From the NCBI RefSeq assembly GCF_023638055.1, contig NZ_JAKRVY010000001.1, positions 379,815 through 443,814 of the forward strand: a stretch of DNA of 64,000 nt, read 5' to 3'. Shown here piece after piece: positions 41,549 to 50,471 of this stretch; positions within the stretch are counted from its first letter, which is position 1, and every line of letters begins with the position of its first letter. Position numbers and translations under genes: made by a program. This DNA comes from Natranaeroarchaeum aerophilus (lineage in GTDB: Archaea > Halobacteriota > Halobacteria > Halobacteriales > Natronoarchaeaceae). The notes below the pieces were generated by a model. That model saw only the letters and a list, made by a program, of their open reading frames with translations. It did no database searches and had not been told where the DNA came from.

Positions 41549-42160
41549 CTACGAGGTGCGCTTCTCCGCGAGGCTCTCGCGGAGAAACGCGACGACCGTC
41601 TCGGCAACCGACCCGTGCTGGCCGACGAAAAAGTGGTCGGCGGCGAGGTCGTCGGTGCGGTGGCCCAGCTCTCGGGCGCGCTCGACGACTGACTCCCATT
41701 CGACTGTCGAGTCCCGCACGCCGTAGACGACCTGTACCGGCGCGTGGATGGCTTCGAGTGCAGCGAGGGCGTCCAGTTCGGACCCGAGTGTGGCGGTTGG
41801 CGCGAGCGCCGAGACAGCATCCACCTGGGTCTCGGCGGCGGCGAGCAGCGCGACCGTCGCCCCGAAGCTGTACCCGAATAGTCCGACCCGGACGTACCGG
41901 TCGCTGGCCCACGAGACCGCGTTCTCGGCGTCAGTGCGCTCACCGCGTCCCCCGTCCCACGGGCCGTAATCGAAGCGCAGACAGTCGATTCCGGTCGCGA
42001 CGAGCGCGTCCGAGACGGCGGTCAGTCTGGCGTCGTGACGGCTCCCGCCGTGTTCGGGATGGGGCGGGCAGGCGACCACAACTGCGTCGCTCGCACCACC
42101 GTCCTGATCGAGCGATGCCCGAACGTCGCGCCCGCCGGGGACGAGCACCGATTCTGACAT
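41549..42160 (-). CDS. Alpha/beta hydrolase (dienelactone hydrolase-like)
   Basis: The 203-residue enzyme has the nucleophile elbow GLFGYSFGATVALL (Ser98, GxSxG) and the N-terminal CPPHPEHGGSRHD as the oxyanion-loop region. The catalytic Asp is in VQVVYGVRDSTVEW and the His in HFFVGQHGSVAET. Substrate is unknown. The start of this gene lies 52 bases from the divergent pspA-like gene; the other side is 75 bases from the sensor gene. Confidence 0.83.
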   Translation of the reverse strand: MSESVLVPGGRDVRASLDQDGGASDAVVVACPPHPEHGGSRHDARLTAVSDALVATGIDCLRFDYGPWDGGRGERTDAENAVSWASDRYVRVGLFGYSFGATVALLAAAETQVDAVSALAPTATLGSELDALAALEAIHAPVQVVYGVRDSTVEWESVVERARELGHRTDDLAADHFFVGQHGSVAETVVAFLRESLAEKRTS

Positions 42161-42212: not shown

Positions 42213-43061
42213 ATGGGAGTACTCTCGCGCGCCAGCTACGTTATCCGGTCGAAGGTGAACGCCCTCCTCAACCGGGCCGAAGACCCGGGTGAGACGCTCG
42301 ATTACTCGTACGAACAGCTCCGGGACGAGCTACAGGACGTCAAGAAGGGAATCGCCGACCTGACGACCCAGAAGAAGCGTCTGGAGATGCAGAAACGAAA
42401 GCTCGAGGACAACGTCGAGAAACACAACGAACAGGCCCGACAGGCCGTCAAACAGGACCGCGAGGATCTGGCTCGCCGCGCCCTCGAAAAGAAGAAGACG
42501 AAGATGACCCAGATCGAGGAGCTGGAGGGCCAGATCGCCGACCTCCAGAACACACAGGACGGGCTCGTCGAACAGAAAGAGACCCTCCAGCAGCGCATCG
42601 AGGAGTTCCGCACCAAAAAGGAGACGATCAAGGCACGCCACGAGGCCGCCGAAGCGAGCGCGCGCGTCTCCGAAGCGGTGACGGGTGCAGGAGATCAGTT
42701 CGGCGACGTGAACCGGGCGATCGAGCGCGCCGAGGAGAACACCGAAGAGCTGGAGGCTCGCTCCGCAGCGCTGGACGAACTGCAGGAGGAAGGCGTCCTC
42801 GAGGATCAGCTCTCGGACAAAAGCGACCTCGAGCGCGAACTCGAAGATGTCCACACGCAGGGGACGGTCGAGTCCGAACTCGATACGCTGAAAGCCGACA
42901 TGGGCAAAGAGACCGAGAGCGAATCGACGTCAGATGATCCCCAGTCGGTCGCGGAGCCGGACCTCGAAGCGGAACTCGACGAGGACGTCGATGTCGACGC
43001 CGAACTCGCCGACTCGGAGATCGACGCGGAGCTCGAAGAGCTGCGCGACGACGAGAACTGA
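42213..43061 (+). CDS. pspA: PspA/IM30-family protein
   Basis: The 282-residue protein begins MGVLSRASYVIRSKVNALLN, the amphipathic membrane-binding helix, followed by long coiled coils (QLRDELQDVKKGIADLTTQ through about residue 210). The family binds and stabilises damaged membranes. An acidic tail of 60-70 residues extends beyond typical bacterial PspA (222). TATA-like TTTTTAAT (42184-42191) lies about 20 bases upstream of the ATG. Confidence 0.88.
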   Translation: MGVLSRASYVIRSKVNALLNRAEDPGETLDYSYEQLRDELQDVKKGIADLTTQKKRLEMQKRKLEDNVEKHNEQARQAVKQDREDLARRALEKKKTKMTQIEELEGQIADLQNTQDGLVEQKETLQQRIEEFRTKKETIKARHEAAEASARVSEAVTGAGDQFGDVNRAIERAEENTEELEARSAALDELQEEGVLEDQLSDKSDLERELEDVHTQGTVESELDTLKADMGKETESESTSDDPQSVAEPDLEAELDEDVDVDAELADSEIDAELEELRDDEN

Positions 43062-43244: not shown

Positions 43245-43285
43245 ACTGGCTGTTTTTGTGCTGTCAGATCGACAGTAGACAGGAG

Positions 43286-44284
43286 ATGAAAGAGCACGAT
43301 CCGGGTTCGCTCGGCGGGAGCCGCGACGAAGGCGGGCTTCGCAGTCGCGTTTTGCTGACGACTGATCGCTGGCTCCTGACCGCCTGCGTGCTGGGTGCGG
43401 TGTTCGCGACGCTGGTCGCCGCGAGCCTGCTCGGACTTGCGCCACTGGCCCGGATCGTCGACGAGCAGGGTGGCGTCCAGTTTCTCTTCACCGCCTTTAT
43501 CGGTGCGATCATCACGGGGACCTCGGTCGTCGTCACGATCAGTCAGCTCGTGCTCGCACAGGAGCTGGGGGCGGTCGGCGACCAGCGCGAACGCATGGAG
43601 GAGTCGATGGCGTTTCGCGAGGACGTCGAGCGCGCGGTCGACGCCGGGGTTGCCTCGCCCGAGCCAGCCGTGTTTCTCGCCGAGTTGCTGGAGGGAATCG
43701 AGAGTCAGGCACGGACACTCGACGATACGACGCCGTCGGGAACCGAAATCGACGAGTACGTCCAGCGGCTGGTCGATCGGACTCAGGGGGTTACCGGGGC
43801 TCTCGACGACGCGCAGTTCGGGACGTTCGGCGTCATCCGGGCAGCGCTTCGCTTTGACTACTCGCTCCAGCTCTATCACGCTCGCCGACTCCGTGCCGAA
43901 CACTGGGAAGGCCTCGACACGTCAGCCCGCGACGCACTCGACGAGTTGATCGACGAGCTGACGCTCTTTGGCCCGGCGCGGGAACACTTCAAGACGCTGT
44001 ATTTCCAGTGGGAGCTGATCGAGCTGTCCCGCGCGATGCTGTACGTCTCGATCCCCGCGCTGGTCGTGATGGGCGGGTTGATCATGTACGTCGACGCGGC
44101 AGCAGTCCCCGGCGTGACGCTCGGCGTCGATCACCTCGTCTGGCTCACGAGCGCGGGCTTTGCCGTTGGAATCGCTCCGTTCGTCGTCTTCATCGTCTAC
44201 GTCCTGCGAATCCTGAGTATCGCCAGGCGAACGCTGGCGATGGGACCGTTCGTGCTCCGGGAGACAGATCGGGAGACGACGTAG
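43286..44284 (+). CDS. Haloarchaeal membrane protein of unknown function
   Basis: From ATG 43286 (preceded by AGGAG) the product has 332 residues. Two TM helices near the N-terminus (about 33-52 and 70-95), a long soluble helical middle and two C-terminal TM helices (ALVVMGGLIMYVDAA, IAPFVVFIVYVLRIL) are visible. The family appears conserved in haloarchaea but I do not know its function. The rhodanese gene begins about 38 bases downstream in the same direction. Confidence 0.65.
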   Translation: MKEHDPGSLGGSRDEGGLRSRVLLTTDRWLLTACVLGAVFATLVAASLLGLAPLARIVDEQGGVQFLFTAFIGAIITGTSVVVTISQLVLAQELGAVGDQRERMEESMAFREDVERAVDAGVASPEPAVFLAELLEGIESQARTLDDTTPSGTEIDEYVQRLVDRTQGVTGALDDAQFGTFGVIRAALRFDYSLQLYHARRLRAEHWEGLDTSARDALDELIDELTLFGPAREHFKTLYFQWELIELSRAMLYVSIPALVVMGGLIMYVDAAAVPGVTLGVDHLVWLTSAGFAVGIAPFVVFIVYVLRILSIARRTLAMGPFVLRETDRETT

Positions 44285-44322: not shown

Positions 44323-44691
44323 GTGTCACCCACGTATCCGGACGAGCTGGACGAGCAACTCGACGACGACGCCCCGTTCGTCCTCGACATTCGGCCTCGA
44401 ACCGCCTACCAGTCGGGGGCGATCGAGGGCAGCCATAACATCCCTGTCTACGACGAGCTCCGTGGCGGCGACGAGTCGTCGTTCCGCGCGGGCTTCGACG
44501 AACTCCCCGACGACGAGGAGATCGTCGTCGTCTGCAAGATGGGGATCGTCGCGAAGCGCGCGACTCAGATCCTGACCGACGAGGGCTACGACGCGAGCAC
44601 GCTTGCGGGCGGGATGAGCAGCTGGAACGGCTACCAGTCGGGCTCGCTCGGATACAAACTGCGATCCCTGTTCTGGAGTGTGCGCCGGTAG
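44323..44691 (+). CDS. Rhodanese-domain sulfurtransferase
   Basis: From GTG 44323 (MSPTYPDELDEQLDDD) the product has 122 residues. The active-site loop is VVVCKMGIVAKRATQI, with Cys present, and it contains DIRPRTAYQSGAIEGSHNIP. A second rhodanese of the window, distinct from that at 36643. The upstream membrane protein may be cotranscribed. It follows that gene by 38 bases and precedes the ThrRS-like gene by 37. Confidence 0.85.
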   Translation: MSPTYPDELDEQLDDDAPFVLDIRPRTAYQSGAIEGSHNIPVYDELRGGDESSFRAGFDELPDDEEIVVVCKMGIVAKRATQILTDEGYDASTLAGGMSSWNGYQSGSLGYKLRSLFWSVRR

Positions 44692-44728: not shown

Positions 44729-46456
44729 ATGCGATTGCTCGCCGTGCACGCCGACGCGCTGTCCTGTGAGCCGGTCCACTCGCGGGGGGATGTAGAGCCG
44801 GAGGAGTATCCCGACCCGGTGTCTGCTGACAGCTGTATCGGCGCGTTCGTCGGCGTCGAGACGGGCGACGGCGGGCGAATGGGGGCGGTCGCCACAGCGG
44901 CGGCCGCCGAACTCCGTGCGGCGAGCGACCAGCTCAACACCGACACGGTGGTGCTCGTCCCGACGCCCCACCTCGTCGACGACACGGCCGAGCAGGGCGT
45001 CGTGGCGGCCGTGCTCGACGAGATACGGGCCGGGCTCTCCGATCGTGACGTCCGATCGGTTCCGTCGGGCTGGCATCTCGAATGTGACCTGCGGACGAAG
45101 GGCCATCCCTACGCGGTTCGGTCCAGACGACTCACTGGCGAGGACCACGTGGACGAGGCGACGGGCGAGACCGCGTGGTTCCTCGCGGGCGACACGAGTG
45201 CAGACGGCCCGGACGCCAATGATCCGCCGGTACCCATCCAGGACGCCACCGCGGTTCCGGCTGTGCTCGACGGGATCGTACGCGGGGAGCGACGCCACCC
45301 CCGACTTGGTGAGATCCTCCCAGCCCACGGGATCACAACGAGTGACGAAGCGGCGACAGGAGGCGGACTACGATGGACGCCCCGGGGCCTGACGATGCGC
45401 GCGTGCATCCGGGCGCTGCTCGACGAGCGGTTCGCGGACGCGACGCCGATCCGGACGCCGGAGCAACTGAATCCCGCGACGACGGCGATCCGCGAGCACG
45501 TCGCGGCCGCGGGCTGGACCGTGGAGGGGCCGTCGGTGACCCGTCGGGCGCTCTGTCCCGGCCATCTCTCGGCCCTCGCGGACGCCGATCTCGACGCCGA
45601 CGCGCTTCCGGCGACGCTGTGGGAGGTCGGCGAGTGCGAGCGCCCGGACTCGGCCCCCCAGAAGGTGACGCTTCCGGAGGCTCACACCGCGACGACCGAT
45701 CTCGATGCCGCGCTGGCGGTTGTCGAGGAGCGGCTGGGGCTGTTCGACGAGCTCGATTCGACGCTCGGGATCGATCGCGTGCCGGTCGTGCGCGTCACCG
45801 ACGAGTTCTATGCGGCCCACGAGCAGTGGGTCGAGGGGGTCGTTGGGCGCTTCGAGGGGCCGGTCGCCGTCGAGCGCGGCGCGGTCGAGCACCCTTTCTC
45901 CGTGGCGTTTTTCGCGTCGGTCGGCGACGACGTCGTCGAGCTGGGCTGGCTCCGGGTCGATGTCGACGGCCCGGCGCGGTTCGGTGTCGAGTACGCCGAT
46001 GGGACGCGCCGCTCGACGCCGGTCGTCGTCCACACCGCCCCCGTCGGGACCGTCGAGGCGCTGGCCGCGACGGTGCTCGATCCGGGCGTCCCGACGTGGC
46101 TTGCCCCCACACAGGTCCGACTGCTTCCGATCGACCAGGGACAGGTAGCGCGCTGTCGGAGGGTTGCGGCGACGCTGTCGGGGGCGGGGGTCCGTGTGGA
46201 TATCGACGACAGGGCGCGGACGGTCGGGGAGCGCATCGCGGCTGTGACGGATCGGGTCCCGTACTACGCAGTGATCGGTGACCGGGGCGACGGGGAACGA
46301 CTGCGCGTCACCGACAGCGAGACCGGCGCGACGGAGGAAACGACACCCGCGGCGCTCGCCGAACGGATCGGGGCATCGACGCCGCTCGATCGACCCGTGT
46401 CGCGCCGCGGGCCACTGTGTCTGAGCGACCGGCTGGTGGTCGGCGGGTCGGAGTAG
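44729..46456 (+). CDS. ThrRS-related protein: archaeal editing domain with reduced core
   Basis: From ATG 44729 the product has 575 residues. Residues 1 to about 140 resemble the archaeal ThrRS editing domain (RLLAVHADALSCEP, PSGWHLECDLRTKGHPY), which removes Ser from tRNA-Thr. The C-terminal anticodon-binding domain is visible as PTWLAPTQVRLLPIDQGQ. The middle (about 240-430) lacks clear class II motifs 2 and 3 (no fRxE or GxGxER seen), so aminoacylation is unlikely. Separate editing-only ThrRS proteins are known in Crenarchaea. It likely works in trans beside a full ThrRS elsewhere (inference). Confidence 0.7.
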   Translation: MRLLAVHADALSCEPVHSRGDVEPEEYPDPVSADSCIGAFVGVETGDGGRMGAVATAAAAELRAASDQLNTDTVVLVPTPHLVDDTAEQGVVAAVLDEIRAGLSDRDVRSVPSGWHLECDLRTKGHPYAVRSRRLTGEDHVDEATGETAWFLAGDTSADGPDANDPPVPIQDATAVPAVLDGIVRGERRHPRLGEILPAHGITTSDEAATGGGLRWTPRGLTMRACIRALLDERFADATPIRTPEQLNPATTAIREHVAAAGWTVEGPSVTRRALCPGHLSALADADLDADALPATLWEVGECERPDSAPQKVTLPEAHTATTDLDAALAVVEERLGLFDELDSTLGIDRVPVVRVTDEFYAAHEQWVEGVVGRFEGPVAVERGAVEHPFSVAFFASVGDDVVELGWLRVDVDGPARFGVEYADGTRRSTPVVVHTAPVGTVEALAATVLDPGVPTWLAPTQVRLLPIDQGQVARCRRVAATLSGAGVRVDIDDRARTVGERIAAVTDRVPYYAVIGDRGDGERLRVTDSETGATEETTPAALAERIGASTPLDRPVSRRGPLCLSDRLVVGGSE

Positions 46457-50039: not shown

Positions 50040-50471
50040 ATGTACGACGACATACTGGTGCCGACTGACGGGAGCGAGGGGACTGCGGAGACGCTCGACC
50101 ACGCAATCGAGATCGCTGGGAACCACGATGCCACCCTGCATGCGATCTCGGTGATGGACCAGCGCGTCTATCTGGCGGCCGAGGACGACGAGCGCGACGA
50201 GATCATCGACCGACTCCGCCGGGACGCCGAGGCGGCGATCGAAGACGTCGCGGACAGGATTGCTGAGACCGACCTCGCCCTCGAAACCGCGGTGGTCGAC
50301 GGAACGCCGTACAAGGAGATTCTGGGCTACGCTGACGAGCACGACATCGATCTGGTCACGATTGGGACCCACGGCCGGACGGGCCGGGACAAACTGGAGA
50401 ACCTCGGGAGCGTCACCGAACGAGTAGTGAGGGAAGCGGATCGGACGGTGCTGGTCGTCAGTATCGGGTGA
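50040..50471 (+). CDS. Universal stress protein (UspA family)
   Basis: The 143-residue Usp begins MYDDILVPTDGSEGT and has the full ATP-binding loop GTHGRTGRDKLENLGSVTER near residues 111-130. The C-terminus is RTVLVVSIG. It is the most canonical of the three Usp proteins here. It is convergent with the AbrB-PhoU gene, with adjacent stops (TGA at 50469-50471, next stop at 50472). Confidence 0.9.
   Translation: MYDDILVPTDGSEGTAETLDHAIEIAGNHDATLHAISVMDQRVYLAAEDDERDEIIDRLRRDAEAAIEDVADRIAETDLALETAVVDGTPYKEILGYADEHDIDLVTIGTHGRTGRDKLENLGSVTERVVREADRTVLVVSIG

Follow-up and report, generated by a model that had tools for sequence, protein, structure and literature searches.

A degenerate but selected archaeal-type threonyl-tRNA synthetase beside a complete bacterial-type enzyme in a haloarchaeon

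Why should selection keep a synthetase in which both catalytic sites are damaged? The question is raised by a gene of the archaeal threonyl-tRNA synthetase (ThrRS) type, ThrRS-R, in a 64,000-nucleotide stretch of DNA from Natranaeroarchaeum aerophilus, called the window below (Table 1). The start of the encoded protein, MRLLAVHAD, is aligned with the starts of its homologues; a mechanical list of open reading frames gives an alternative upstream GTG at 44678 and hence 592 amino acids. The original prediction that the editing and anticodon-binding ends are recognisable and the class II core is not agrees with the Pfam matches, since PF08915 (65.4 bits against a curated threshold of 30.2) and PF03129 (33.4 bits against 21) were found, and the class II core PF00587 had no match in the protein at E ≤ 1. 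PDB structures of archaeal ThrRS editing domains also align with that of the window protein, the best being 4rrf (E 6.7e-13). Among the NCBIfam models, PRK03991 (archaeal ThrRS) is collinear with amino acids 1-553 at 221.8 bits, under its cut-off of 484, and PRK14938 (Ser-tRNA(Thr) hydrolase) reaches 77.7 bits, below its cut-off of 362. By this end-to-end collinear homology, and by a neighbourhood common to some intact copies, the protein is an archaeal ThrRS by descent. An orthologue in a genome of the same genus is 87% identical, and a search for relatives in another collection, of genome contigs, gave one bacterial locus, in Devosia, at 23% identity. The single-sequence AlphaFold model is unreliable (mean pLDDT 40).

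Table 1. Positions in the window of the degenerate thrS, its domains and its neighbours
Feature	Position	Strand	Remarks
alpha/beta hydrolase	41549..42160	-	divergent from pspA, part of conserved block
pspA (PspA/IM30)	42213..43061	+	Pfam; also upstream of some intact archaeal thrS
342-aa protein	43256..44284	+	no Pfam match
rhodanese-domain gene	44323..44691	+	ends 37 bases 5' of the degenerate thrS
degenerate archaeal-type (ThrRS-R) threonyl-tRNA synthetase	44729..46456	+	575 aa plus stop
Archaea-specific ThrRS editing domain PF08915 (tRNA-Thr_ED)	44729..45130	+	aa 1-134, Pfam E 7.6e-18
Leu117, position of editing lysine (P. abyssi K121)	45077..45079	+	alignments
degenerate class II catalytic region	45344..46078	+	aa 206-450, borders set by us; motif 2 R/E pair and motif 3 R lost, C/H/H kept
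anticodon-binding domain PF03129	46112..46369	+	aa 462-547, Pfam E 5e-8
universal stress protein	50040..50471	+	homologue directly 3' of archaeal thrS in six compared genomes

The gene order leading to the degenerate thrS is alpha/beta hydrolase (minus strand), pspA, the 342-aa protein and the rhodanese gene (all plus), and on its 3' side follow an aldo/keto reductase (minus), a PAS histidine kinase (plus), the universal stress protein (plus) and PhoU (minus). Proteins of the window were searched by tblastn (E 1e-8) against the stretches around the gene in the 20 genomes with a degenerate copy and in 14 of the 26 with an intact or near-intact one. The pspA gene lies upstream, in the same orientation, of 14 of the 20 degenerate genes, namely all nine of the window's family and those of G381, G233, G328, G238 and G265, and likewise of five of the 14 intact or near-intact genes (G125, G198, G160, G371, G050), three of which (G050, G198, G371) are sole thrS copies; often it is not the adjacent gene. 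By tblastn it was not found near six of the 20 degenerate genes (G024, G175, G161, G388, G267, G117) or near nine of the 14 others (G146, G273, G383, G171, G373, G276, G002, G119, G021). In the intact G198, G160, G371, G050 and G002 and the degenerate G267, the match is followed at no more than about 110 bases by a universal stress protein gene. The shared neighbours suggest that the window gene is the old archaeal thrS, still in place. A recent arrival by a mobile element is unsupported, as the neighbourhood is conserved in the window's family and, of 74 plasmid records with a match, the ten listed are distant, at 22-37% identity, three of them annotated thrS. Of the 35 stretches, 13, counting the window, have a homologue of the 342-aa protein close to the archaeal thrS, its orientation being variable, and among the same stretches the rhodanese-domain gene is confined to the window genome and its congener G033.

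For the catalytic core, the window copy was aligned with 26 intact or near-intact archaeal-type ThrRSs, all of which have the motif 2 R and E, the motif 3 R, and the C/H/H positions that we take to be zinc ligands. The class II motifs of the window copy are not intact, as had been predicted: its row is gapped where the others have the motif 2 R and E (this is alignment-dependent, as by eye ECERPD could fit there and keep the R but not the E) and has an A in place of the motif 3 R; three residues aligned with C/H/H are retained. Among the 20 degenerate rows, window included, the motif 2 R..E pair is present in none (G161 enters the alignment as an N-terminal piece, without data at motif 2), the motif 3 R in five, and all three zinc positions in four. 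The reading of a still-active synthetase, for threonine or another amino acid, in which the core is unusual, could appeal to the C/H/H positions kept in the window copy and in three of the other 19 degenerate copies; with the motif 2 pair absent from 20 of 20 rows (G161 lacking data there and the window row gapped) and A in place of the motif 3 R in the window copy, we rejected it on the class II motifs as extremely improbable, and aminoacylation by the window protein is unlikely.

The decay of the core is uneven with that of the ends. Columns conserved at 80% or more in 24 intact copies (without G171 and G373) number 86 of 137 in the editing domain, 22 of 68 in the linker, 168 of 245 in the core, 50 of 100 in the anticodon-binding domain and 11 of 25 in the tail; among 19 degenerate copies (G161 left out), columns near-invariant in at least 15 number 29, 2, 16, 35 and 1, respectively. 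The core is thus the most conserved of the three domains in the enzyme and the least conserved in the degenerate form, in which the anticodon-binding domain, retained in the window protein, has the largest share of near-invariant columns. In two f7 copies, G171 (L014/L119) and G373 (L063/L120), the key residues of motifs 2 and 3 are kept and surrounding core positions are changed, so that these copies look as if caught in transition. A relative in G327 (L079/L140, G327:C18) has an in-frame TAA in the core, between the positions matching window amino acids 255 and 272, which is either a real break or an assembly error, the genome being 89% complete in about 40 contigs.

The search for another complete thrS that the original prediction called for succeeded: the window genome encodes, on another contig, a complete bacterial-type ThrRS (P0002) of 649 aa, and PF00587 matches at five places in the genome, none of them at the window gene. 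Across the class, PF08915 is found in 46 of 391 genomes and has no match in the other 345; all nine genomes of the window's family have a match to the window gene, which is unbroken in eight. A nearly full-length bacterial-type ThrRS (P0002 search, E 2.1e-239 or better) accompanies PF08915 in 31 of the 46 genomes, and in the remaining 15 the archaeal-type gene is the only strong match to P0002, the absence of a bacterial ThrRS being less sure in two of these, whose completeness is 92% and 89%. None of the 15 genomes without bacterial ThrRS has a degenerate archaeal copy, and the key residues are intact in all of them; in the 31 genomes with both, the archaeal copy is degenerate in 20 and intact or nearly so in 11, with kinship uncorrected and with the visibly fraying G171 and G373 counted among the 11. 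These labels are ours and were assigned from match scores and inspection before the residue table was made. Patterns HxxxH and CxGPH, which we take to be marks of the bacterial ThrRS editing site, match in all 30 bacterial-type loci checked, of 31, the one outside this check being that of G171. Patterns for catalytic motifs 2 and 3 match in the bacterial ThrRS of the window genome and fail in some other bacterial-type loci, which we take to mean that the pattern is too strict.

The bacterial-type ThrRSs are of two visible kinds, with MNCPGH (L086-L102) or MNCANH (L103-L115), which suggests two acquisitions; each kind is found together with degenerate archaeal copies. In four genomes an archaeal and a bacterial-type thrS form a divergent neighbouring pair, G125:C1 (L012/L100/L128), G070:C1 (L010/L101), G355:C1 (L050/L102) and G388:C28 (L078/L099/L137); both genes are intact in the first three, which are the f8 genomes, and the archaeal copy is degenerate in G388.

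The class II dimer interface is carried by the core. Such a location weighs against the window protein acting on the bacterial ThrRS as its regulator or as a second subunit, in a heterodimer like Anabaena T1/T2 with one dead partner, as among the three domains conservation is lowest in the core, and the two thrS genes of the window genome lie on different contigs. Both proteins do descend from class II ThrRS, the thrS genes are divergent neighbours in G388 and in the three f8 genomes with both, and PMC4787780 reports that Anabaena ThrRS copies heterodimerise; we nevertheless regard this explanation as very improbable.

Purifying selection on the window gene is evident from a pairwise codon model with the congener G033, where omega is 0.255 at dS 0.26 (2dlnL 59.7 against omega = 1). 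By region, omega is 0.226 in the editing domain, 0.293 in linker plus core and 0.216 in the anticodon domain, and 2dlnL against omega = 1 for the three regions takes the values 14.6, 20.5 and 25.7. The gene is thus neither a chance frame, which is ruled out by the 87% identical orthologue together with the overall omega, nor a free pseudogene, its frame being open and its evolution non-neutral. The whole-gene omega is 0.021-0.093 for the five pairs of intact or near-intact archaeal copies taken as controls, and the bacterial ThrRS gives 0.011-0.040 in seven of the eight genome pairs with degenerate copies; by comparison, the constraint on the degenerate gene is real but relaxed. The other seven degenerate pairs give a whole-gene omega of 0.016-0.150 with dS high or saturated, and weight is therefore placed on the window pair (G000/G033). 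That the constraint is weak is also indicated by the dN of the degenerate gene, which in seven genome pairs exceeds the value for the bacterial ThrRS by a factor of 4 to 27. In six of the eight degenerate pairs the core exceeds both ends in dN. The two exceptions are the window pair, where the anticodon domain changes fastest (82% amino-acid identity, against 90% in the editing domain and 88% in the core) and also has the highest dS, and the pair G238/G265, where the editing domain is fastest in dN.

Fast evolution of this kind, the joint decay of both active sites, the graded series from intact copies through G373 and G171 to degenerate ones, the stop in G327 and sizes from 509 to 729 aa (the G161 fragment aside) would all suit a slowly decaying relic that has no role today, the frame of which survives since high-GC frames rarely meet stops. 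We nonetheless think such a relic improbable, because omega is below 0.3 in each of the three regions of the window pair, the gene has matches in nine of nine family genomes and is unbroken in eight, and 35 of 100 columns of the anticodon-binding domain are near-invariant among the 19 degenerate copies.

The editing site adds an observation to those of the original prediction. In the window copy the editing residues are clearly located by alignments with PDB structures: in P. abyssi numbering, H83 is kept, and Y120, K121 and E134 are replaced by H, L and V. The missing lysine was spotted by eye before the residue table was made, and in that table K121 is kept in none of the 20 degenerate copies, with seven different replacements (the alignment is loose here in two rows, G031 and G128); among the 26 intact or near-intact copies it is lost only in G171, to T. 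The degenerate copies keep H83 in eight of 20 cases, Y120 in one and E134 in four, and thus the pocket is not uniformly kept, these three residues being replaced in most copies. W119 and K128 are kept in 16 of 20 each and H130 and P131 in 20 of 20, the Gly-Trp and His-Pro positions of the editing domain being retained in the window copy as well.

The meaning of these changes can be judged from the work of Ahmad et al. (2015; PMC4491819). K121 of P. abyssi positions a water in editing, and the K-to-M change severely compromises the P. abyssi, A. pernix (K116M) and M. jannaschii domains by shifting the catalytic water, although earlier work of the same group saw partial activity; the mutant domains keep high affinity. 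Loss of the lysine therefore counts against normal editing and not against binding. Y120 and E134 are dispensable, Y120A and E134A staying active, and H83A kills the P. abyssi domain but not that of A. pernix. According to the same text, specificity comes from the backbone, the basis of catalysis is the tRNA and not the side chains, Met is the natural residue of DTD where these domains have the lysine, the terminal adenosine is faced by residues 117-120, and cognate Thr bound without hydrolysis might have its ester protected. A. pernix ThrRS-2 is a real trans-editor.

A trans-editing factor as in Crenarchaea was the function originally proposed, and part of the evidence goes with it: the pattern of kept ends resembles ThrRS-ed, and in near-invariant columns of 19 degenerate copies the ends exceed the core. 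Such a trans-editor would recruit tRNA-Thr through its anticodon domain and strip serine without the lysine side chain, as in DTD with its Met. Its editing domain is recognisable (E 7.6e-18) and under purifying selection (omega 0.226), both ends are slower than the core in dN in six of eight degenerate pairs, the window pair excepted, and the backbone specificity, the active Y120A and E134A domains, the tRNA-based catalysis and the Met of DTD, as stated in PMC4491819, make it conceivable. A specific trans-editing role is nevertheless not borne out, as none of the 20 degenerate copies keeps K121, which has seven different replacements, and according to the same paper a K-to-M change is severe in three domains; only eight of the 20 keep H83; editing motifs are present in the bacterial ThrRS itself at all 30 loci checked; and PF08915 had no match in 345 of the 391 genomes surveyed in the class. 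We therefore rate a working trans-editor as possible but unlikely.

Our best reading, tentative and given slightly less than an even chance, is that the window protein is a retired ThrRS that does not charge, probably hardly edits, and is kept as a tRNA-Thr-binding protein. The archaeal-type thrS would have stayed in its old neighbourhood after the bacterial-type ThrRS took over threonylation. Its product would make no Thr-adenylate; it may dock on the anticodon arm of tRNA-Thr and hold the CCA end in the editing pocket, with hydrolysis of Ser-tRNA-Thr weak or absent, and would thus serve as a non-catalytic binder of tRNA-Thr or aminoacyl-tRNA-Thr, a chaperone, buffer or sensor, the cellular benefit being a guess. 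This reading is favoured by the full-length, sub-threshold PRK03991 match, the second complete ThrRS, degeneracy in 20 of 31 genomes with both forms against none of 15 with one, and the pspA synteny; by omega below 0.3 in three regions, the fall of the core to the least conserved domain, and the loss of K121 with W119, H130 and P131 kept; and, from PMC4491819, by the inactive but high-affinity K-to-M domains and the position of residues 117-120 at the terminal adenosine. Against the tRNA-Thr-binding protein speak the high dN, the anticodon domain being fastest in the window pair, the TAA of G327, the non-uniform pocket, the lack of pspA at six of 20 degenerate and nine of 14 other genes, and the pLDDT of 40.

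Whether degeneracy arose once or several times was approached by trees of the editing plus anticodon columns, in which the degenerate rows are long branches. The 19 degenerate rows form one clade (100/100) beside the near-intact f7 copies, and the clade persists (100/99) after removal of six long rows; a tree test rejects a clade of f4 rows (p 4e-6) and one of f7 rows (p 0.0002). One-by-one placement of 12 degenerate rows onto 22 of the 26 others put them in differing places, mostly with weak support: near f7 (G175, G024, G053, G178, G381, G238 and, loosely, G031), to f8 (G000, G233, G388), to f3 (G267) and outside (G324). Descent from f7 by transfer misfits the neighbourhoods, because the degenerate copies of f1 and f4, and one in f3, have pspA nearby, which was found near none of the seven searchable f7 genes, nor near the two pieces of G161. 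A more speculative proposal, which we consider rather doubtful, is that of a haloarchaeal class of pseudo-synthetases: once a bacterial ThrRS had taken its place, an old ThrRS that lost charging and the editing lysine may have been repurposed as a non-catalytic (aminoacyl-)tRNA-Thr binder, perhaps protecting the ester bond or sensing charging, and the intact, transitional and degenerate copies would record this conversion, possibly more than once.

A 2011 study (PMC3191353) describes archaeal ThrRS-C and ThrRS-R as homeoalleles and proposes that, during replacement, a time of co-existence can precede the loss of one form; within Halobacteriales it places ThrRS-R only in Halorhabdus utahensis, and it reports no genome with both forms. 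Some Halobacteriales are placed in the rare ThrRS in PMC4427996 (2015). PMC9976931 describes ThrRS-ed as a truncated ThrRS without a catalytic site, and PMC5424206 and PMC8762117 describe stand-alone tRNA-Thr-ED proteins and SepRS fusions elsewhere. No description of a degenerate haloarchaeal ThrRS-R was found in searches of an open-licence library, subscription papers being outside their scope. With 31 of 391 genomes having both forms and the archaeal one intact, fraying or degenerate, ThrRS replacement can be watched in living species. The reason why selection keeps a doubly damaged synthetase would bear on tRNA-binding pseudo-synthetases, and on how far the work of the PF08915 fold depends on tRNA as against protein side chains.

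Catalytically dead synthetase-like proteins that keep the fold for a non-charging role include HisZ and the HisRS-like domain of GCN2. The window protein is predicted to be like them in keeping a synthetase fold beyond charging, and differs in that no partner or regulatory role is known for it. With crenarchaeal ThrRS-ed, or A. pernix ThrRS-2 (PRK14938), it shares editing and anticodon domains without a working core and a separate complete ThrRS in the genome; it differs in a core that is decayed but largely present, in the lost editing lysine and in its score (77.7 against 362 bits), and the partner ThrRS in its genome is of the bacterial type with editing motifs of its own. The archaeal ThrRS-R itself (PRK03991; Halorhabdus utahensis and methanogens, in PMC3191353 and PMC4427996) has the same order of editing domain, core and anticodon domain over the full length, and the neighbourhood of the window gene matches that of some intact haloarchaeal copies; the window gene has lost the class II residues and the editing lysine and scores 221.8 against 484 bits. 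Finally, the Anabaena pair T1 and T2, as presented in PMC4787780, offers a parallel in that one cell has two thrS copies that differ in ability, but there both copies can aminoacylate, whereas the archaeal-type copy of the window is predicted to be dead.
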